Source: Gaeumannomyces sp. JS-464
Taxonomy: Eukaryota; Ascomycota; Sordariomycetes; Magnaporthales; Magnaporthaceae
DNA: 64,000 nucleotides
Assembly: GCA_002197995.1 (NCBI GenBank)
Contig: NGZR01000002.1
Span: 7,068,001 to 7,132,000, forward strand
Reading direction: 5' to 3'
Made by a program: the position numbers and the translations under genes. This document shows positions 5,670 through 12,346 of this stretch, piece by piece. Within the stretch, counting starts at the first letter, position 1. Each line of letters starts with the position of its first letter. Under the pieces are notes generated by a model, which did not search any database, was not told where the DNA came from, and saw only the letters and a program-made list of their open reading frames with translations.

Positions 5670-5687
5670 GCATGCTTATAAGCATGC
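5670..5687 (+). promoter_or_regulatory. Palindromic TATA element upstream of the 5S gene
   Basis: A perfect 18-bp palindrome with TTATAA at its centre. The TATA core lies about 27 bp upstream of the 5S start at 5705. Dispersed 5S genes of Neurospora-type fungi carry a TATA element near -29 that is needed for RNA polymerase III transcription, so this supports a formerly functional 5S promoter rather than a random 5S fragment. Confidence 0.65.
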
Positions 5688-5704: not shown

Positions 5705-5769
5705 ACATACGGCCATACCCACTGGAATATACGGGATCCCGTCCGCTCCCCTAGTCAAACCAGTGAGGG
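5705..5769 (+). rRNA. 5S rRNA gene, 5' part only (interrupted)
   Basis: The sequence starts ACATACGGCCATACCCACTGG and contains GGGATCCCGTCCGCTC, the standard 5' region of ascomycete 5S rRNA. The CCCACTGG strand can pair with CCAGTGAGGG at the end of the segment, forming helix II. Similarity stops after TGAGGG at 5769. The missing 3' part is found about 6.5 kb away at 12285-12341. As it stands it cannot give a complete 5S transcript: the internal control region continues into the missing part. Confidence 0.82.
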
Positions 5770-6337
5770 AGGGCTGGTTTGACTACCGGAAAGCGATTGG
5801 ATCCTAAACAGCTGGCTAATGATAATTTTGGTTAAAGGTTGATTGTTGTTATGGGCAGTAGGGGTAGCCCTACTGGACCCGCTGTTTGCATAAAGGCATG
5901 GCGGGCCCGTGCATATAGTGGGTCCCAGGCCCTGACAGGGGCCTGCATCCTTATCTACCAATAAGGAGGGGTACAGATTATCTGACAGGTCCCAGGACTT
6001 GTCGGTCGGCTCGATCGGCCCCCTGCACGGGCCACCACGCACGGGCCACGTTCCTGTAGATGGAATAGGCCCCTCGTTGGATCCGCGCGATCCGACGAGG
6101 GCCAGAGAGAGAATCATCATCACGACTTTACCATCAGCCTCGCCCGGCCTTTGGCCGTTACCGTTGGAGGTTTCCTGTCGCTGGGAGGCATATCAATTTT
6201 TAATCAAGGCCGATGGAAATAAGGAGAGCGATTGTGGTTCGCGCTGGACATCATCTACTGCTATGGCCAATGGAGGCCCGACCACGGTATCCACCCTAAG
6301 TTCTTCTCCACCAAGCGCTTAGCATTTGCACGTGGTG

Positions 6338-6492
6338 TGATGGCGCGGCGTGCCTTGTTGGGCAGACGCAGCCATGTCTCGTTTGCGCCAAGGTACTAAG
6401 CCCAACGTGGGATACAAGTCGGAGAACTTGTATCTTCTCGTCCTTTTGGCCTAGTTGGATTGGGCTTAGCTAGATTTGCCAGAGCCGTGACA
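6338..6492 (+). repeat. 155-bp inverted repeat, copy A
   Basis: It is matched in inverse orientation by 11181-11335, with roughly ten substitutions and short gaps over 155 bp, most of them transitions (for example CGTGGGAT against CGTAGGAT). Each copy begins TGATG and ends GTGACA. Nested palindromic arms lie inside: 6396-6405 pairs with 6460-6469 and 6411-6419 with 6426-6434. Together the copies bracket the NLR gene. About 0.5 kb of AT-richer DNA without a gene follows (6493-6966), with a TATAAAT box near 6558 that would suit a retroelement LTR, though this is not proven. Confidence 0.85.
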
Positions 6493-6966
6493 TGTGGCAC
6501 CCTACATCATTCCGACCCCTTTATCTGCAATTGGTTGTTGTTAACGATGGTTGATCTTATAAATGGGCTTCATCGTATGTCGAGAACTCCTTGCCCCCTT
6601 CTTCTCTAGATACAAAGTGGTGATTGGAAAAGAGAGTGTCCTAATATACACAGAATGGAGTGGAGATAGAATCTTCTAGAAGAGATATACAACAGGATTC
6701 GTGACTGTTGTAACTGGTGCCACAGTGGGCTGCAAAATCTTCTAGAGCAGCGTAGCATTTCTGCCCCTTGATAGTTGTTCACATTGACGTGCTGCTGTGC
6801 TGTGGCAAAGCGTGTTTCGCCACTGTCACCTGATAGAAAACGTGGTTGGACGGTTCCAGAATATTCTCTAAAGGCAGCGCAAACCTATAAAGCTACTTGT
6901 CCCCTTATGACCCGGTTCAGGGCAAAGTGATAAGAAAAAAAGAGAAACTAATTTAAGGAAGGTTCT

Positions 6967-9900
6967 CTAACGAGAAGTAATATCACCTAAAAACCGGAAG
7001 AACAGTACCCGTCCTGAGGAGCACCCTAAAGCTATTCTAAATCTTGATGCAGCCGAACTCTGTGGTCGGTATTCAACGGGCAGCCACAGCAAATTCTGCC
7101 CATTCCAGGTGATCCATACTTTGTCGAAACTGATGCCGATACCTTCAATATCTGCATTTTTATGCCGTAGATAGGTTTGAAGTGTTGCTGCATCGGCAGC
7201 CGGTGGTTTGCGAAGCGATATATTTCCAAAATCTGTACGGAGGTACGAGCCTTTGCATTAAATGATAAGGTGGAAGTTAACCCTGTAAACGTCGCCTCGC
7301 ACGCGCCCGTCGCCGCGTCCCAGAGCTTGACGGTTTTGTCGTCAGAGGCCGACGCGAGCTTCTGGCCGTCGGGCGAGAAGGCGGACGGAGAAAACCCAGC
7401 CGTTGTGCCCCTCGAGCGTCGCCTCGCACGCGCCCGTTGCCGCGTCCCAGAGCTTGACGGTTTTGTTGTAAGAGGCCGACGCGAGCTTCTGGCCGTCGGG
7501 CGAGAAGGCGACGGAGAGGACCGAGCCGTTGTGCCCCTCGAGCGTCGCCTCGCACGCGCCCGTTGCCGCGTCCCAGAGCTTGACGGTTTTGTTAGAGGCC
7601 GACGCGAGCTTCTGGCCGTCGGGCGAGAAGGCGACGGAGCGGACCGAGCCGTTGTGCCCCTCGAGCGTCGCCTCGCACGCGCCCGTTGCCGCGTCCCAGA
7701 GCTTGACGGTTTTGTCGTCAGAGGCCGACGCGAGCTTCTGGCCGTCGGGCGAGAAGGCGACGGAGAGGACCCAGTCGTTGTGCCCTCGAGCGTCGCTACG
7801 CATGGGTTCCAATCCAAATCCACTGGTGAGAGCAATGAAATGCAATGTGGAAATTTATGGCGCCATAATTTCCGAATCACACTTTTTTCTGGTGCAAATT
7901 CCAAAGCTGAGGCGTAGATTTGGAGAGGCGATGCGTCGATAGTAGTGTAATTTTTCGGGAGAAAACGTTGCAAATCACGAAGAAGCGCCGACACTGCTAT
8001 GCTGTTTCTTGGCTAAAGCTACGTTAGTACATATCTTTTTTGTAAAGATGATAGAAGTACTTACGTTGAGCATATTTAGCAGGCTGTTTAGCATGCCGAT
8101 ACTTTCTCGGATCCGCCCTATTACACTTAACGCTTCGAGCCAGTATAGAAGATGGTCGGTTAGGAAGTGACTGGCAGGATCACCGTCTTGTATCTGCCTT
8201 TTGCTCTCTTCCCAATGGTAAACCCAGTATCGACAGGCATATTGGACCTCGGGCGGCAAAACGGAATTGATCGTCTGCTCGTTAACTTGGGACCGGAGGG
8301 TTCCAGGCAAACGCATGCCACAAATGTTTCTTTTAAGGTTATCGCCGGTTGATAGCAGTTCGAGGCAGCGGTTTGCCAGCCGTTCGTGGGTGTTTTGCTT
8401 GTTAACCCAGAATGGGTTCGCATCGCGGTTTTCGTCGTCCACGAGGAAGTCGCGAAAAGACAGATGAAGCAGTTTGACTGGGGCGATCGGATCGTCGGAA
8501 ATTTCAAGGACAGAATGCAAGCCGCGTAGCTTCGAATCAACGTTCACCTGGGGTTTGCCAAGTAGCCGTGCCAGCGATGCGGTAGGGAGTGGATCGGCGA
8601 GGAGTACGATAGCGCCGACAATCTCGCGGAACCACCTAAGTATCGCAGTTCTCTCATTCTCTGTGCGACTAATTGATCCTGAATTTGTGCGCTTGAGAAG
8701 AAGCTGATTTAGGATCGGCAGATATGTCGTGTGAAGCTGAGACCATCCGCCCTTTTTCCTGTACTCGAGGATCTTGTCCAGCTGCTCTTGAGGATCACCC
8801 AAGTTGCTATCGGCAATAAAGCGGCAAGCTGTCGATGCGAAGATGAAAAGCGGCACAGCCATATCGACAAGGCCTGTGAATCTGAGAGCTGGAGGCCAGT
8901 CTAGCGGTAGCCCAGGTCCTCGAACAGTTTTGTTGAAATTGCGCCGGAGTCGATCTAATTCCCAACGCAGGAACGTAGAAATGTCCTTTCTTATAGCAGG
9001 CTCGGGAATCTCGTGAAGGGCCAGGTCTTGATATCTGCCGTCGATTTCTTTAAAGCCAAGGCGGATGGGCAGCTCGGGTCTGCTGGTGACAAAGAATCGG
9101 ATGCGGATCGATGTTGCCTCTTTTGCTCTGGACAGAAGGCGAACCAGGTTAATGGCATCCTCTTCCCGATCGCACTCGTCAAGCGCGTCGACCACCACGA
9201 TAAGCGATTCCGGGACACCGCCTTTGCATTTGTTCAGCGGCTTTAGGAAGAGCTTCTCGAACTGCTCTCTTTTGGTTTTGTTAACGATGGCCGGGTCGCT
9301 TTTAATCACTTTCTGGACGTGCGAAATCAAAGCCGGGAGTTGTTGAAGGAGCTGAGCAAGGATGGTGGTAAAAAACATGGCTGCTTTGCCCCGGTCGCCT
9401 TCACCCCTTTTGAAGAAAAAGCTGGCGCTGGGCACCTTTGCGTCGGCAAATGATTTGGTGATGGTTCGAGAAATGGTCGATTTGCCGGTGCCAGCCATGC
9501 CGCGCAGCCAAAATATGCCCTTTCCGTTCGGATCCTCGATCCATTTGTGAATATAGGCAAGGAGGTCCACGCGGGTGGCAGGGTGGCAGCTGGGGTCGTG
9601 CTCGTTGGCTTCGGCGTCGAATGCTGCGCTTTTTGCCACTGGAAGCCTTAGCAGATCGATTTGAATGCTATTTATTCAGCGTTAGCTACATACAAAATTT
9701 GTATTTGTTTATTATTGGGGTGGTAGAGGCATCGAAAGGAGAAGCTGTTGTTTGATCTTAGGAACTGGTGATCTTACGCGAGATTATTGACGCCGTCTTG
9801 CGTTTTCTGTACGGTTTTTTCGACTATTTGTTATTAGTTTTTATCCGCTAAGGGGAAGAAAAAAAGGAAACAAAAAAATGCGGAGGAAAATGTCTCGGAA

Positions 9901-10936
9901 AAACGCAGATAGTAGATGATACCAGTTACGCACCTGCACTAAGAACCTCCTCGATCTTCTTCACCGCATCGACCTGGCTGGGCATAATCTGCCTCAGAAG
10001 ATCCTTGGCATAAGCTGCCGCCATCATAGCAGCAAAGCCCTGCCACTCCTTATTTTTATGCGAATCCGAATAATCACAGATTCCCCTAATCACCAGGCAG
10101 GGGAAATGGTTCATCAAACCGGCCGCCTCCATTTCGAAGCAGAGGACGCCCTTTTCGGCCGCCAGCTTGTCCCGAATTTTGGCATCCTTCATCAGCTGGT
10201 TCGCGCTCGCAATCAGCCCGTAGTGGATCGCAGGGTCGTCCTCGTCCGCATGGCGACCTGGACGAGTGATAAGGTGCTGCGGATCACTGCCGCACACTTC
10301 GCTGCAGTCGTTTGGCGAATCTGGATCCTCAGGAGTAGGGTGCACAACTTCGGAGCGATATAATTTGTCACTCGTGGCAGGTGGGCGGGAGTATTTCTTT
10401 CGGAGGCGCCGCTTTTTTTCGAGTATTTGAGTAATGCCCGTCATGAGTTCGTTGCCGTCGGCCTCGTATTGCGCTTTCAATTGACCCACTGCTGTGCGGA
10501 GGACTTGAGGGGGGAGATTGAGAAATCCTGTGTGGACGAAGTCCTTCTCCTGGATGGTTTTTCCATAGTCGTACTGAAACACGCTGCCCTTTCCGCCCGC
10601 AGGACTGCTAACAACGACGTCGCCGAGGCGTATGTCATGCTTCCGGCTCGGAGCGCCGCCCCCGATGCCGACCATCAGGCCGATGCGGATATTGGGAAAG
10701 CTGTGGAGCATATCCCTTGCGACCGTGGCCGCGGTTGTCATCCCGTACTCTCCATCCGGCTGCTGAGCCATGACGACGTTGTGCTGCCCGATCCTGCCGA
10801 GTGTGTAGGCGTTATTGTCATGTTGGCCGACGCTTTTGGGCGGTTCGTGTCGCTCGTCGAGGAATTGCTGGGCGGCGACGTACTCGGTCGTTACGGCAGA
10901 AATCCAGCCGACGGTGTACTTGTGCACGTCCGACAT
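6967..10936 (-). CDS. NLR (STAND) protein: PNP-NACHT-WD40
   Basis: Fungal NLR-type receptor of the kind linked to heterokaryon incompatibility and non-self recognition. Exon 1 (9934-10936) encodes a nucleoside-phosphorylase-like domain: GIGGG at residues 90-94, FEMEAAG near 268 and CDYSD near 287. Exon 2 is 9778-9823. Exon 3 (8065-9667) encodes NACHT with Walker [10 protein letters not shown], Walker [11 protein letters not shown] and sensor FFVTSRPE. Exon 4 (6967-8012) encodes four WD40 units and a conserved tail ([28 protein letters not shown]). Introns are 9824-9933, 9668-9777 and 8013-8064. Exon 4 needs three single-base corrections: a missing G at 7783-7785, an extra base at 7381-7384 and a missing base at 7250-7251. 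Corrected, the gene is 1,233 codons with consistent phases. It is the only gene between the inverted repeats and may be intact or recently broken. Confidence 0.88.
7294..7796 (-). repeat. Four near-identical WD40 repeat units
   Basis: Tandem units with copy starts at 7294, 7421, 7547 and 7670 on the plus strand (period 126 bp; one unit lacks a codon). Each encodes HNG(W/S)V.SVAFSPDG and [17 protein letters not shown]. Near identity at the DNA level is typical of WD repeats in HET-E/HNWD-type NLRs, where concerted evolution and selection diversify a few positions. Four units are too few for a seven-bladed propeller, so the array may be contracted or collapsed in assembly. Confidence 0.88.
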
Positions 10937-11180
10937 TAGAAGTGAGCGCTTTTAGACAGAGAGGGATTGATTTCTAGTAGTTTGAGGGAGAGGCGACGGG
11001 AAATATTGTAGAGGGCACAAGAGCGACAGCGGTAAAAAGAAGATGAAAACCAGGCAATGGATGGGCACAGGGGCAGAAATGGGCCCCAACGGGGAATTCA
11101 CTACGATGGAACTGACCAGGAGTGGTAAGGCTGTGGGCGAGGGGCATGACAGTCGAGGGAGGGGACCTTAGCCAGCCCTC

Positions 11181-11335
11181 TGTCACGGCTCTGGCAGTTT
11201 CTAGCTAAGCCCAATCCAACTAGGCCAAAAGGGCAAGAAGATACAAGTCCCCGACTTGTATCCTACGTTGGGCTTAGTACCTTGGTGCAAACGAGACATG
11301 GCTGTGTCTGCCCAATAAGGCACGCCGCGGCATCA
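11181..11335 (-). repeat. 155-bp inverted repeat, copy B
   Basis: Inverse partner of 6338-6492. It lies 245 bp upstream of the NLR start codon, so it may hold or border the NLR promoter. It has the same internal palindromic arms. Several differences from copy A read as G-to-A, compatible with mild RIP or ordinary transitions. No clear target duplication flanks either copy. Confidence 0.85.
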
Positions 11336-11340
11336 TAAGG

Positions 11341-11396
11341 GCATGGAGGGGGGGGGGGCATGGAGGGGAGCATGGAGGGCAGCATGGAAAAAAGCG
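11341..11396 (+). repeat. GCATGGAGGG minisatellite with a poly-G run
   Basis: About four imperfect copies of GCATGGAGGG-type units, including a G tract of roughly twelve, directly outside inverted repeat copy B. Further GGCATGG motifs follow to about 11460. Confidence 0.75.
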
Positions 11397-12284
11397 TTAA
11401 AAAGGCATCGAATGGGCCATAAAAACCGCATGGAAGGACACCGTACGAAGGCATGGGGAAAATCAACGAGGAATGTTCATATCGGATATTTATCATACGG
11501 CTTGTAACCTGCCCGCTTTATGTCCGTTCCATGTCAATGTCAAATACGTTCATCACCAGTTGACAAGTACGATCATTTGACGCTCCCCGGTTTACATTGC
11601 GAGCAAGTTGTTTTCCGGCATGAGATTACCGAACACGCGAACGATGGAGGTCGGCGGCATCACCGTCGTTCGCAGTGATGGCAGCGTTAAGCCTCCAGGC
11701 TTCGGCGATGCACGCCTTTAGTCGACTTGGAATACGCGTCGCTTGCCGGAAGACCGCAAGGTAGCAAAAAGAACTCTTCTCCGGGGCCCCGTCGCAATCT
11801 CCGCACGTACTGTCAGAGCTGAAGTTAACTGCCTACCTTCCCGAGCCGGGGTGCAGAGCCTCGGTGCTGCCTTTCCAGAAAACGAAAAACTGCGGTCTGT
11901 CTCGATGAGCTGCCGCCTTTACCGGCGGATATTTCCCAAAGGCTGCGTGGCATCAGACCAGGCCTCCGCAGACACCAGGGCCAGTCGCGGCCGCCCCCAA
12001 AGGCCCAACCGCGGTGGCGAAATGCGCGCGATCAAGTGCAGATGCGAAAAGATCCTGCCTTGGCATATCCGGGTCGTGCTATTGGGGGAGCAGAAGCGCC
12101 AAAAGCACATTTTTCGTCTCGTCCAGGGAGCATATGAGTTGGAACACAAATGGGTGTGTAGGGTGGGGCGCAGCAAACAGCTGTTGAAAGGGGAGCAGAC
12201 GCGTCCGTTTTTGGAGGCGAACACCTCCGTTTCGGGGCGGTCTGGTTCCCACTGGCTCCCAACTTCTCCCAAGTACCAAGAGAC
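11397..12284. other. Right arm of the island, no gene recognised
   Basis: An open frame of 187 codons runs from 11743 to 12306 on the plus strand, but it has no recognisable domain and reads into the 5S remnant, so it is probably fortuitous. The last 20 bp before the 5S hexamer (CTCCCAAGTACCAAGAGAC) weakly resemble the middle of 5S rRNA. Confidence 0.45.
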
Positions 12285-12341
12285 TGAGGGCCGAACTAGT
12301 ACTTAGGTGGGTGACCACTGGGGAATCCTCGGTGTTGTATG
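12285..12341 (+). rRNA. 5S rRNA gene, 3' part only (interrupted)
   Basis: TGAGGGCCGAACTAGTACTT leads into GGTGGGTGACCACTGGGGAATCC, then GGTGTTGTATG, the standard ascomycete 5S 3' region that includes the GGTGGGTGACCACC-like hairpin. GGTGTTGTATG can pair with the ACATACGGCC start of the 5' part at 5705. The two parts joined at TGAGGG give about 116 nt, close to a full 5S rRNA. Confidence 0.82.
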
Positions 12342-12346
12342 TTTTT
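12342..12346 (+). terminator. Oligo-T RNA polymerase III terminator
   Basis: A run of five T directly after the 5S 3' end, followed by further T-rich sequence, as expected for a polymerase III terminator. Confidence 0.6.

Follow-up and report, generated by a model that had tools for sequence, protein, structure and literature searches.

The window, i.e., the whole stretch of 64,000 nucleotides that was analysed (C12:7068001-7132000), belongs to a genome of 53.0 Mb in 34 contigs, whose gene structure suggests a fungus. Two parts of a 5S rRNA gene are separated in it by about 6.5 kb, and the separating DNA contains a receptor gene of the NLR type. The question is what divided the 5S gene and how the receptor gene came to lie inside it. 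The insert is probably a short, captain-less relative of a 5S-targeting, Starship-like lineage that repeatedly carries NLRs, inserted site-specifically at the hexamer TGAGGG.

Structure of the Divided 5S rRNA Gene

The features of the locus are given in Table 1. The two matches to Rfam family RF00001 extended over 5705-5783 and 12271-12343, with both scores below the gathering score of 38; at the gathering threshold, no RF00001 match occurred anywhere in the window. The original reading, a near full-length 5S gene on joining the parts at the hexamer, was borne out. The parts joined at one TGAGGG gave 117 nt that folded like an intact gene, and 115 of 119 alignment columns were identical in 7 of the 20 intact 5S genes compared (L018, which was not parsed, was left out of this sample). 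The left part was short by 2 nt, CTCTCCCC reading CTCCCC. TGAGGG occurs once in the intact 5S gene and once at each junction of the window copy, i.e., a short direct repeat of the target is present. The upstream TATA box was upheld as a TATA-like sequence, CTTATAAG, but a TATA-like match within 40 bp upstream was present in only 6 of the 20 intact genes.

Table 1. Coordinates of the features at the divided 5S locus (window positions).
Feature	Position	Strand	Evidence
TATA-like CTTATAAG, about 24-31 bp upstream of the 5S start	5674..5681	+	Read directly
5' part of 5S rRNA gene, ending in the core TGAGGG	5705..5769	+	RF00001, 29.0 bits; comparison with intact genes
Left copy of 6 bp direct repeat TGAGGG (target core)	5764..5769	+	Read directly; hexamer recurs at other halves
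Left end of element: inverted copy of 5S left arm, then CTGGCTAATG motif	5770..5860	+	Common to L025, L045
157 bp repeat, read as solo LTR (TG...CA); not element proper	6336..6493	+	28 matches in genome; ends, flanks
NLR exon 3: near-identical WD40 repeats (unit about 126 bp), two single-base frame changes	7257..8012	-	
NLR exon 2: NACHT (NPHP3_N) domain	8065..9638	-	PF24883, 3.2e-33; PF05729, 1.7e-07; splice sites by eye
NLR exon 1: PNP_UDP_1 domain; start codon at about 10936	9934..10936	-	PF01048, 7.7e-11
Second copy of 157 bp repeat, opposite orientation	11181..11335	-	Same dispersed repeat
Right terminal region, conserved in sisters	11336..12284	+	80-85% matches to L056, L057/L059, L058; alignment of 17 right ends
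Right copy of direct repeat TGAGGG	12285..12290	+	Read directly
3' part of 5S rRNA gene, then oligo-T run 12342-12346	12285..12342	+	RF00001, 28.8 bits

Both 5S parts fit one isotype, the major one, because the joined sequence was 94-97% identical to 18 of the 20 intact genes and only 74% and 78% identical to the minor isotypes L020 and L021. The main doubt in the earlier reading, that the right part might come from another isotype, was thereby removed. The weak 5S-like similarity to the left of 12285, which had fed this doubt, proved to be the right terminus of the element, which was common to other copies; its likeness to 5S was not above that of shuffled sequences (156/500 reached the score). 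By contrast with this right arm, the left arm of the element scored 38 against the inverted 5S arm (shuffle mean 12.5; 0/500 reached it). The last 90 bp or so of the right terminal region contained GTCCGTTTTTGGA and AGTACCAAGAGAC, the latter followed directly by TGAGGG.

In the genome, neither the 65 bp upstream nor the 78 bp downstream of the 5S parts, used as queries, led to an empty site for the window locus, and no paralog of its flanks was seen when about 2 kb on each side were compared with the fetched loci. Two further loci had related right ends. A likely relative of the window element lay at C29:5089663-5080699 (L089, L058), where the 157 bp repeat adjoined the same right region and the last 380 bp or so of this region had no match to the window. 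The other (L066, C34:424000-424300) had a right end of the same family that stopped just before the core, with no 5S half after it; a deletion or another insertion site is the reading offered.

The Receptor Gene and the Repeats around It

According to the Pfam domain search of the main ORFs, the cargo was a single gene on the minus strand with the order PNP_UDP_1, NPHP3_N/NACHT and WD40, in agreement with the non-self-recognition-type receptor originally proposed. It was the sole recognizable gene of the 6.5 kb element and lay about 3 kb from its right end. The signals of its two introns looked acceptable on inspection by eye, and one of the introns had a TACTAAC branch site. The three-part architecture (N-terminal domain, NACHT and WD40) is that of the HET-E/HET-D-like fungal NLRs. 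The highly similar WD40 repeats of such receptors were present, spaced at 127, 126, 123, and 125 bp, and were frameshifted; this exon had two single-base frame changes, so that either the gene itself is defective or indels are present in the assembly at this place. The closest NACHT paralogs were at C29:761385 (71% over 192 residues) and C12:997686 (68% over 68 residues), and both adjoined none of the listed 5S junctions.

Copies of a 157 bp dispersed repeat in opposite orientation stood on either side of the gene; hence, the NLR looks as if it were flanked by inverted repeats. The repeat had 28 matches in the genome, 17 of which were on C33 (1.4 Mb), a contig that may be an accessory chromosome. 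Among 14 copies inspected by eye, an exact 5 bp duplication was found at four, a duplication with one mismatch at four and no clear duplication at six. The left copy in the window, with a 5 bp duplication differing in one base, belonged to the second class, and the right copy belonged to the third. The 155 bp inverted arms were considered as transposon termini and were rejected, the arms being copies of this solo-LTR-like repeat.

A Genome-Wide Family of Cut 5S Genes

The 5S family search of the genome returned 31 places, 21 of them scoring at least 80 bits. Separate 5S halves cut at or near TGAGGG numbered at least 21 on the left (5') and at least 17 on the right (3'), with those of the window included. 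These counts are lower bounds, obtained from two pattern searches of the genome and from reading of the junctions; L104 (C23:307896) was left off the left list for want of a recognizable left junction, and the right half C23:312098 was kept. The hexamer at the cut was exact in 14/21 left and 13/17 right halves, and the others differed by one to a few changes.

A search of other 5S loci for the same boundaries, as originally suggested, found common ends at most halves. On the right, GTCCGTTTTTGGA was found within two mismatches in 14/17 ends and the terminus CCnAGTACCAAAACATATGAGGG within six mismatches also in 14/17, both counted without a shuffle control; at least one of the two was present in 16/17, L098 having neither. 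On the left, the inverted 5S left arm was detected in 11/21 ends (at most 2/500 shuffles), CTGGCCAATG within two mismatches in 10/21 (0.97 expected), and at least one of these features in 15/21. Right arms were far less 5S-like, with 2/17 passing at the level of at most 2/500 shuffles. The left ends of L024, L029, L047, L088, L093, and L105 showed neither the inverted 5S arm nor CTGGCCAATG by those tests. These six left halves and L098 may be plain pseudogenes or parts of other elements. The interiors of the sister copies, among them C32:1021153-1026073 (4.9 kb, with a NACHT frame of 728 aa), C31:397046-459497 and C1:2312775-2321459, were mostly known through position searches.

Pairing of the Halves and an Empty Site

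A right half on the same strand, downstream and within 70 kb, was found for 10 of the 21 left halves, with eight distinct right partners, as two right halves were each common to two left halves. The limit of 70 kb was picked after the positions had been seen. The distances were 4.9, 6.5 (window), 8.7, 15.5, 25.3, 30.3, 39.0, 57.7, 62.5, and 65.8 kb. When the right halves were placed at random, the mean was 0.23 pairings and the maximum in 5000 trials was four. As a control, neighbours of left halves on the wrong strand numbered one and those in the wrong order none. Unpaired were 11 left and 9 right halves.

The intact 5S gene L018 (C1:13149375-13149494) matched both flanks of the 66 kb copy and is a paralogous empty site for this sister. 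On the left side, C1:12876394-12876653 matched query positions 90-347 at 87%, i.e., about 190 bp of flank and the 5' half. On the right side, C1:12942348-12942501 matched positions 308-452 at 90%, i.e., the 3' half and about 50 bp of flank. This right match began 34 bases before the core because the 66 kb copy has a right arm that is itself similar to the 5S arm. With L018 as the query, 10/13 left halves ended at 346-350 and 3/8 right halves started at 342, an overlap of 5-9 bases; the remaining halves extended further on one side. Moreover, L018 matched the upstream flank of L030 over 186 bp, and a match of 414 bp was found between L009 and the flank downstream of the right half L060. Upstream flanks were common, by eye, to L006 and L027 and to L002 and L026.

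Two other arrangements were observed. At C1:11270471-11301305, the right half L060 was located 30.7 kb downstream of the intact gene L008 on the same strand, and L009, elsewhere, agreed with one of these two genes in its upstream flank and with the other in its downstream flank; the pattern may reflect a rearrangement between 5S loci after an insertion. At L022 and C1:2321790, a right end was followed directly by TGAGGG and then by the left end of another element. Such tandem joints would be the outcome expected of repeated site-specific insertion at one core or of a circular intermediate.

Recurrence of Receptor Genes in the Sister Copies

When the genome was searched with the NPHP3_N family, 112 fragments were obtained and merged to 92 loci. 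The numbers of NACHT loci inside the junctions were 5, 7, and 8 within 5, 10, and 20 kb, respectively, against 0, 0, and 1 outside. Random placement at 10 kb put a mean of 0.63 loci inside, and none of 2000 trials reached seven. Without the window, chosen because of its NLR, and without the locus next to L098, a half with no common end, five loci were still inside at 10 kb. The orientation of the seven relative to the element was antisense in five and sense in two. The NACHT domain lay 2.0-3.0 kb from the right end, in antisense, in the window copy and in the copies on C32 and C31.

Search for a Captain Recombinase

The search for a captain in the window copy was negative: the whole-genome search with DUF3435 (PF11917) gave no match there, and none was present in the three main ORFs, as had been stated from the outset. 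The search gave 21 matches in the genome, which were grouped by hand into about 13 loci. One of these loci was inside a 5S element, and PF11917 matched nothing in the copies of 15.5, 25, 39, 62, and 66 kb. The single locus (L086, C1:2368976-2369179, minus strand) was a remnant 1.3 kb inside the left half at C1:2370468 (minus strand), pointing inward. Its score was 23.9 bits in the genome search, under the cut-off, and 30.6 bits (cut-off 25.8; E = 2.3e-07) when the frame was read with X at the stops. This piece is a broken Starship captain at the place expected of the first gene. The locus had 36-47% GC over most of its length and a TpA/ApT ratio of 1.21, as RIP can leave.

The copy at C1:2370468 was taken to end at the tandem joint C1:2321790, about 48.7 kb off, since no other left half was found between them. 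Its right end matched window positions 11350-12293 in two pieces (80% and 85%), and its left end was closely similar to that of the 4.9 kb copy on C32. No match at 1e-3 to the DUF3435 loci was obtained with six-frame translations of the 5 kb left-end pieces of the 62, 66, and 15.5 kb copies, of 24 left-half or right-end loci and of the window insert. Several DUF3435 loci matched one another well, and the remnant L086 had no significant match to the others. Its three ORF pieces alone gave no Pfam match, and the DUF3435 piece had no hit among solved structures. In the 66 kb copy, the TpA/ApT ratio of the leftmost 5 kb was 1.85; therefore, a captain may have been erased there.

Two loci outside the 5S elements were also recorded. 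The DUF3435 gene L081 (C1:10766100-10768950), whose matched part was free of stops and of RIP-like dinucleotide ratios, was near two inverted copies of the 157 bp repeat and not near a 5S half. The only DUF3723 matches of the family search of the genome were at C33:1217208-1218258, on the repeat-rich contig and not in a 5S element.

Origin of the Insert and Alternative Explanations

The insertion with a short target duplication that was originally proposed is supported by the cuts at the same hexamer, the common ends, the left-right pairing and the paralogous empty site of the sister. The further proposal of a decayed or non-autonomous Starship relative is supported by the DUF3435 remnant that one sister has where a captain would be expected; in the window copy and in the other paired copies, no captain was found.

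The anatomy of these loci suggests how the insertion may proceed. A mobile element would enter a 5S rRNA gene at its core, TGAGGG, through site-specific recombination. The captain, a tyrosine recombinase of a full-length sister, would bind an arm-core-arm site formed by the element ends and would recognize the same arm in the 5S gene, which the left end of the element imitates beside the core. Strand exchange within TGAGGG would then leave one hexamer at each junction. Near the right end, the element carries one NACHT-type receptor, transcribed inward, and this cargo recurs in several sisters. The cut was presumably made by this type of captain. The window copy has no enzyme and, therefore, either lost it after landing or was moved by that of a sister; we infer one of these two histories, of which loss was somewhat more likely a priori.

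Decay in place is a sub-case of this reading, in which a 5S element of tens of kilobases landed and was afterwards stripped of the captain and of most cargo, the short form itself never having moved. The chances of this history are judged to be a little short of even. Among the 17 right ends, the terminus variant AGTACCAAGAGACTGAGGG of the window was shared by the 62 kb C31 copy alone, where a NACHT gene, oriented as in the window, lies 2.8 kb from the right end. Moreover, several captains elsewhere in the genome were AT-rich with RIP-like dinucleotide ratios. However, three paired copies (4.9, 6.5, and 8.7 kb) have retained both ends in spite of their small size; random deletion would not readily have this outcome, and these copies argue for movement by the enzyme of a sister.

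A more tentative possibility, rather doubtful at present, is that in this lineage the 5S-targeting Starship-like elements regularly contain an NLR close to the right end as a fixed component, and that captain-less units of about 5-9 kb, made up of two ends and, in two or more of the three, one NLR, are mobilized in trans by the captain of full-length sisters. If this were true, a non-autonomous class of Starship would spread self/non-self receptor genes among 5S loci, and the element ends would be under selection to keep matching the 5S arm.

It is improbable that another 5S-specific recombinase is the mobilizer and the DUF3435 gene at C1:2368976 a passenger. This would agree with the failure to find a captain in the other paired copies, but the sole captain remnant occupies the place and direction expected of the first gene, and, with about 13 loci and 21 left halves, the probability of finding a locus by chance inside a left half at a distance of at most 2 kb was estimated at about 0.01. 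Direct repeats over 6 bp and a 5S target, as reported for Starships in the available part of PMC12153272, also speak against it.

A separate NLR transposon nested in the 5S element and bounded by 155 bp inverted repeats (6338-6492 and 11181-11335) is very unlikely. The arms flank the gene and are complementary to each other at 93-100% in three segments; nevertheless, they belong to the dispersed TG...CA repeat, with its 28 matches and its exact 5 bp duplications at 4 of 14 copies. Two unrelated truncated 5S pseudogenes lying 6.5 kb apart by chance can practically be dismissed: this genome does have dispersed 5S genes and many partial copies, but the two parts agree in isotype, cut, strand, and order, 10 pairings stand against 0.23 expected, and common element ends adjoin the cuts, with a paralogous empty site known for a sister.

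Comparison with Known Systems

Truncated 5S rRNA pseudogenes have long been known in filamentous fungi, and those of Aspergillus nidulans are followed by a conserved foreign block. In these pseudogenes, a 5' 5S half is joined to conserved non-5S sequence, as it is here; a literature search on the A. nidulans pseudogenes found nothing. The insertion proposed for the window may explain the old truncated 5S pseudogenes of filamentous fungi too.

The Osiris Starships (Enterprise family) of Aspergillus fumigatus insert into 5S rDNA and fragment it. According to the available passages of that survey, they have captains, mean lengths of 38-138 kb, and direct repeats that exceed 6 bp, and 18 of the 20 Starships curated there possess terminal inverted repeats; elements under 15 kb were filtered out (PMC12153272). 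The window copy and Osiris are alike in the fragmentation of 5S and in the direct repeats; the position of Osiris within 5S is not given in these passages, and the terms NLR and NACHT do not occur in the text available (PMC12153272). Osiris elements are long and have a captain, as far as the accessible part of the survey describes them, whereas the window copy is 6.5 kb long, captain-less, and NLR-bearing.

The Voyager Starship is reported to insert into 5S genes at the target AGAATACAGGGC, as cited in the available part of PMC10128009, where DUF3435 and DUF3723 proteins are named for 5S-targeting Starships. On the 5S genes of this genome, the target given there is located, by eye, about 40 nt upstream of TGAGGG. 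In contrast with Voyager as described in that part, DUF3723 was found on C33 alone and not in a 5S element. Receptors of the NLR type, in one case NACHT-WD40, are cargo of captain-led Starships in the accessible portions of PMC12506042 and PMC12134995. As accessory genes in these portions, NLRs ride on captain-led elements; here, the receptor is the only recognizable gene of a 6.5 kb element. Of the typical accessory genes of Starships (NLR, PLP, FRE, DUF3723), an NLR is present in the window copy, and NACHT loci are enriched in the sisters, where its position relative to the right end recurs in two paired copies. A literature search conducted without full texts found no short captain-less element of this kind and no fixed NLR position.

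Two defining features of a Starship, the captain and the large size, are absent, and the window copy is therefore not filed as a Starship; its one recognizable gene and 6.5 kb compare with up to 66 kb in the paired sisters. It would nevertheless work like a Starship and has ends in common with one. The recurrent NLR inside 5S elements links self/non-self receptors to mobile DNA, and the resemblance of the left end to the 5S arm hints at the way in which the target is recognized. Surveys of Starships start from captains and long elements, and short captain-less copies with both ends are a blind spot of such surveys; in this genome, the cut 5S gene delimits such copies on either side, so that they could be recognized even when no captain was present.
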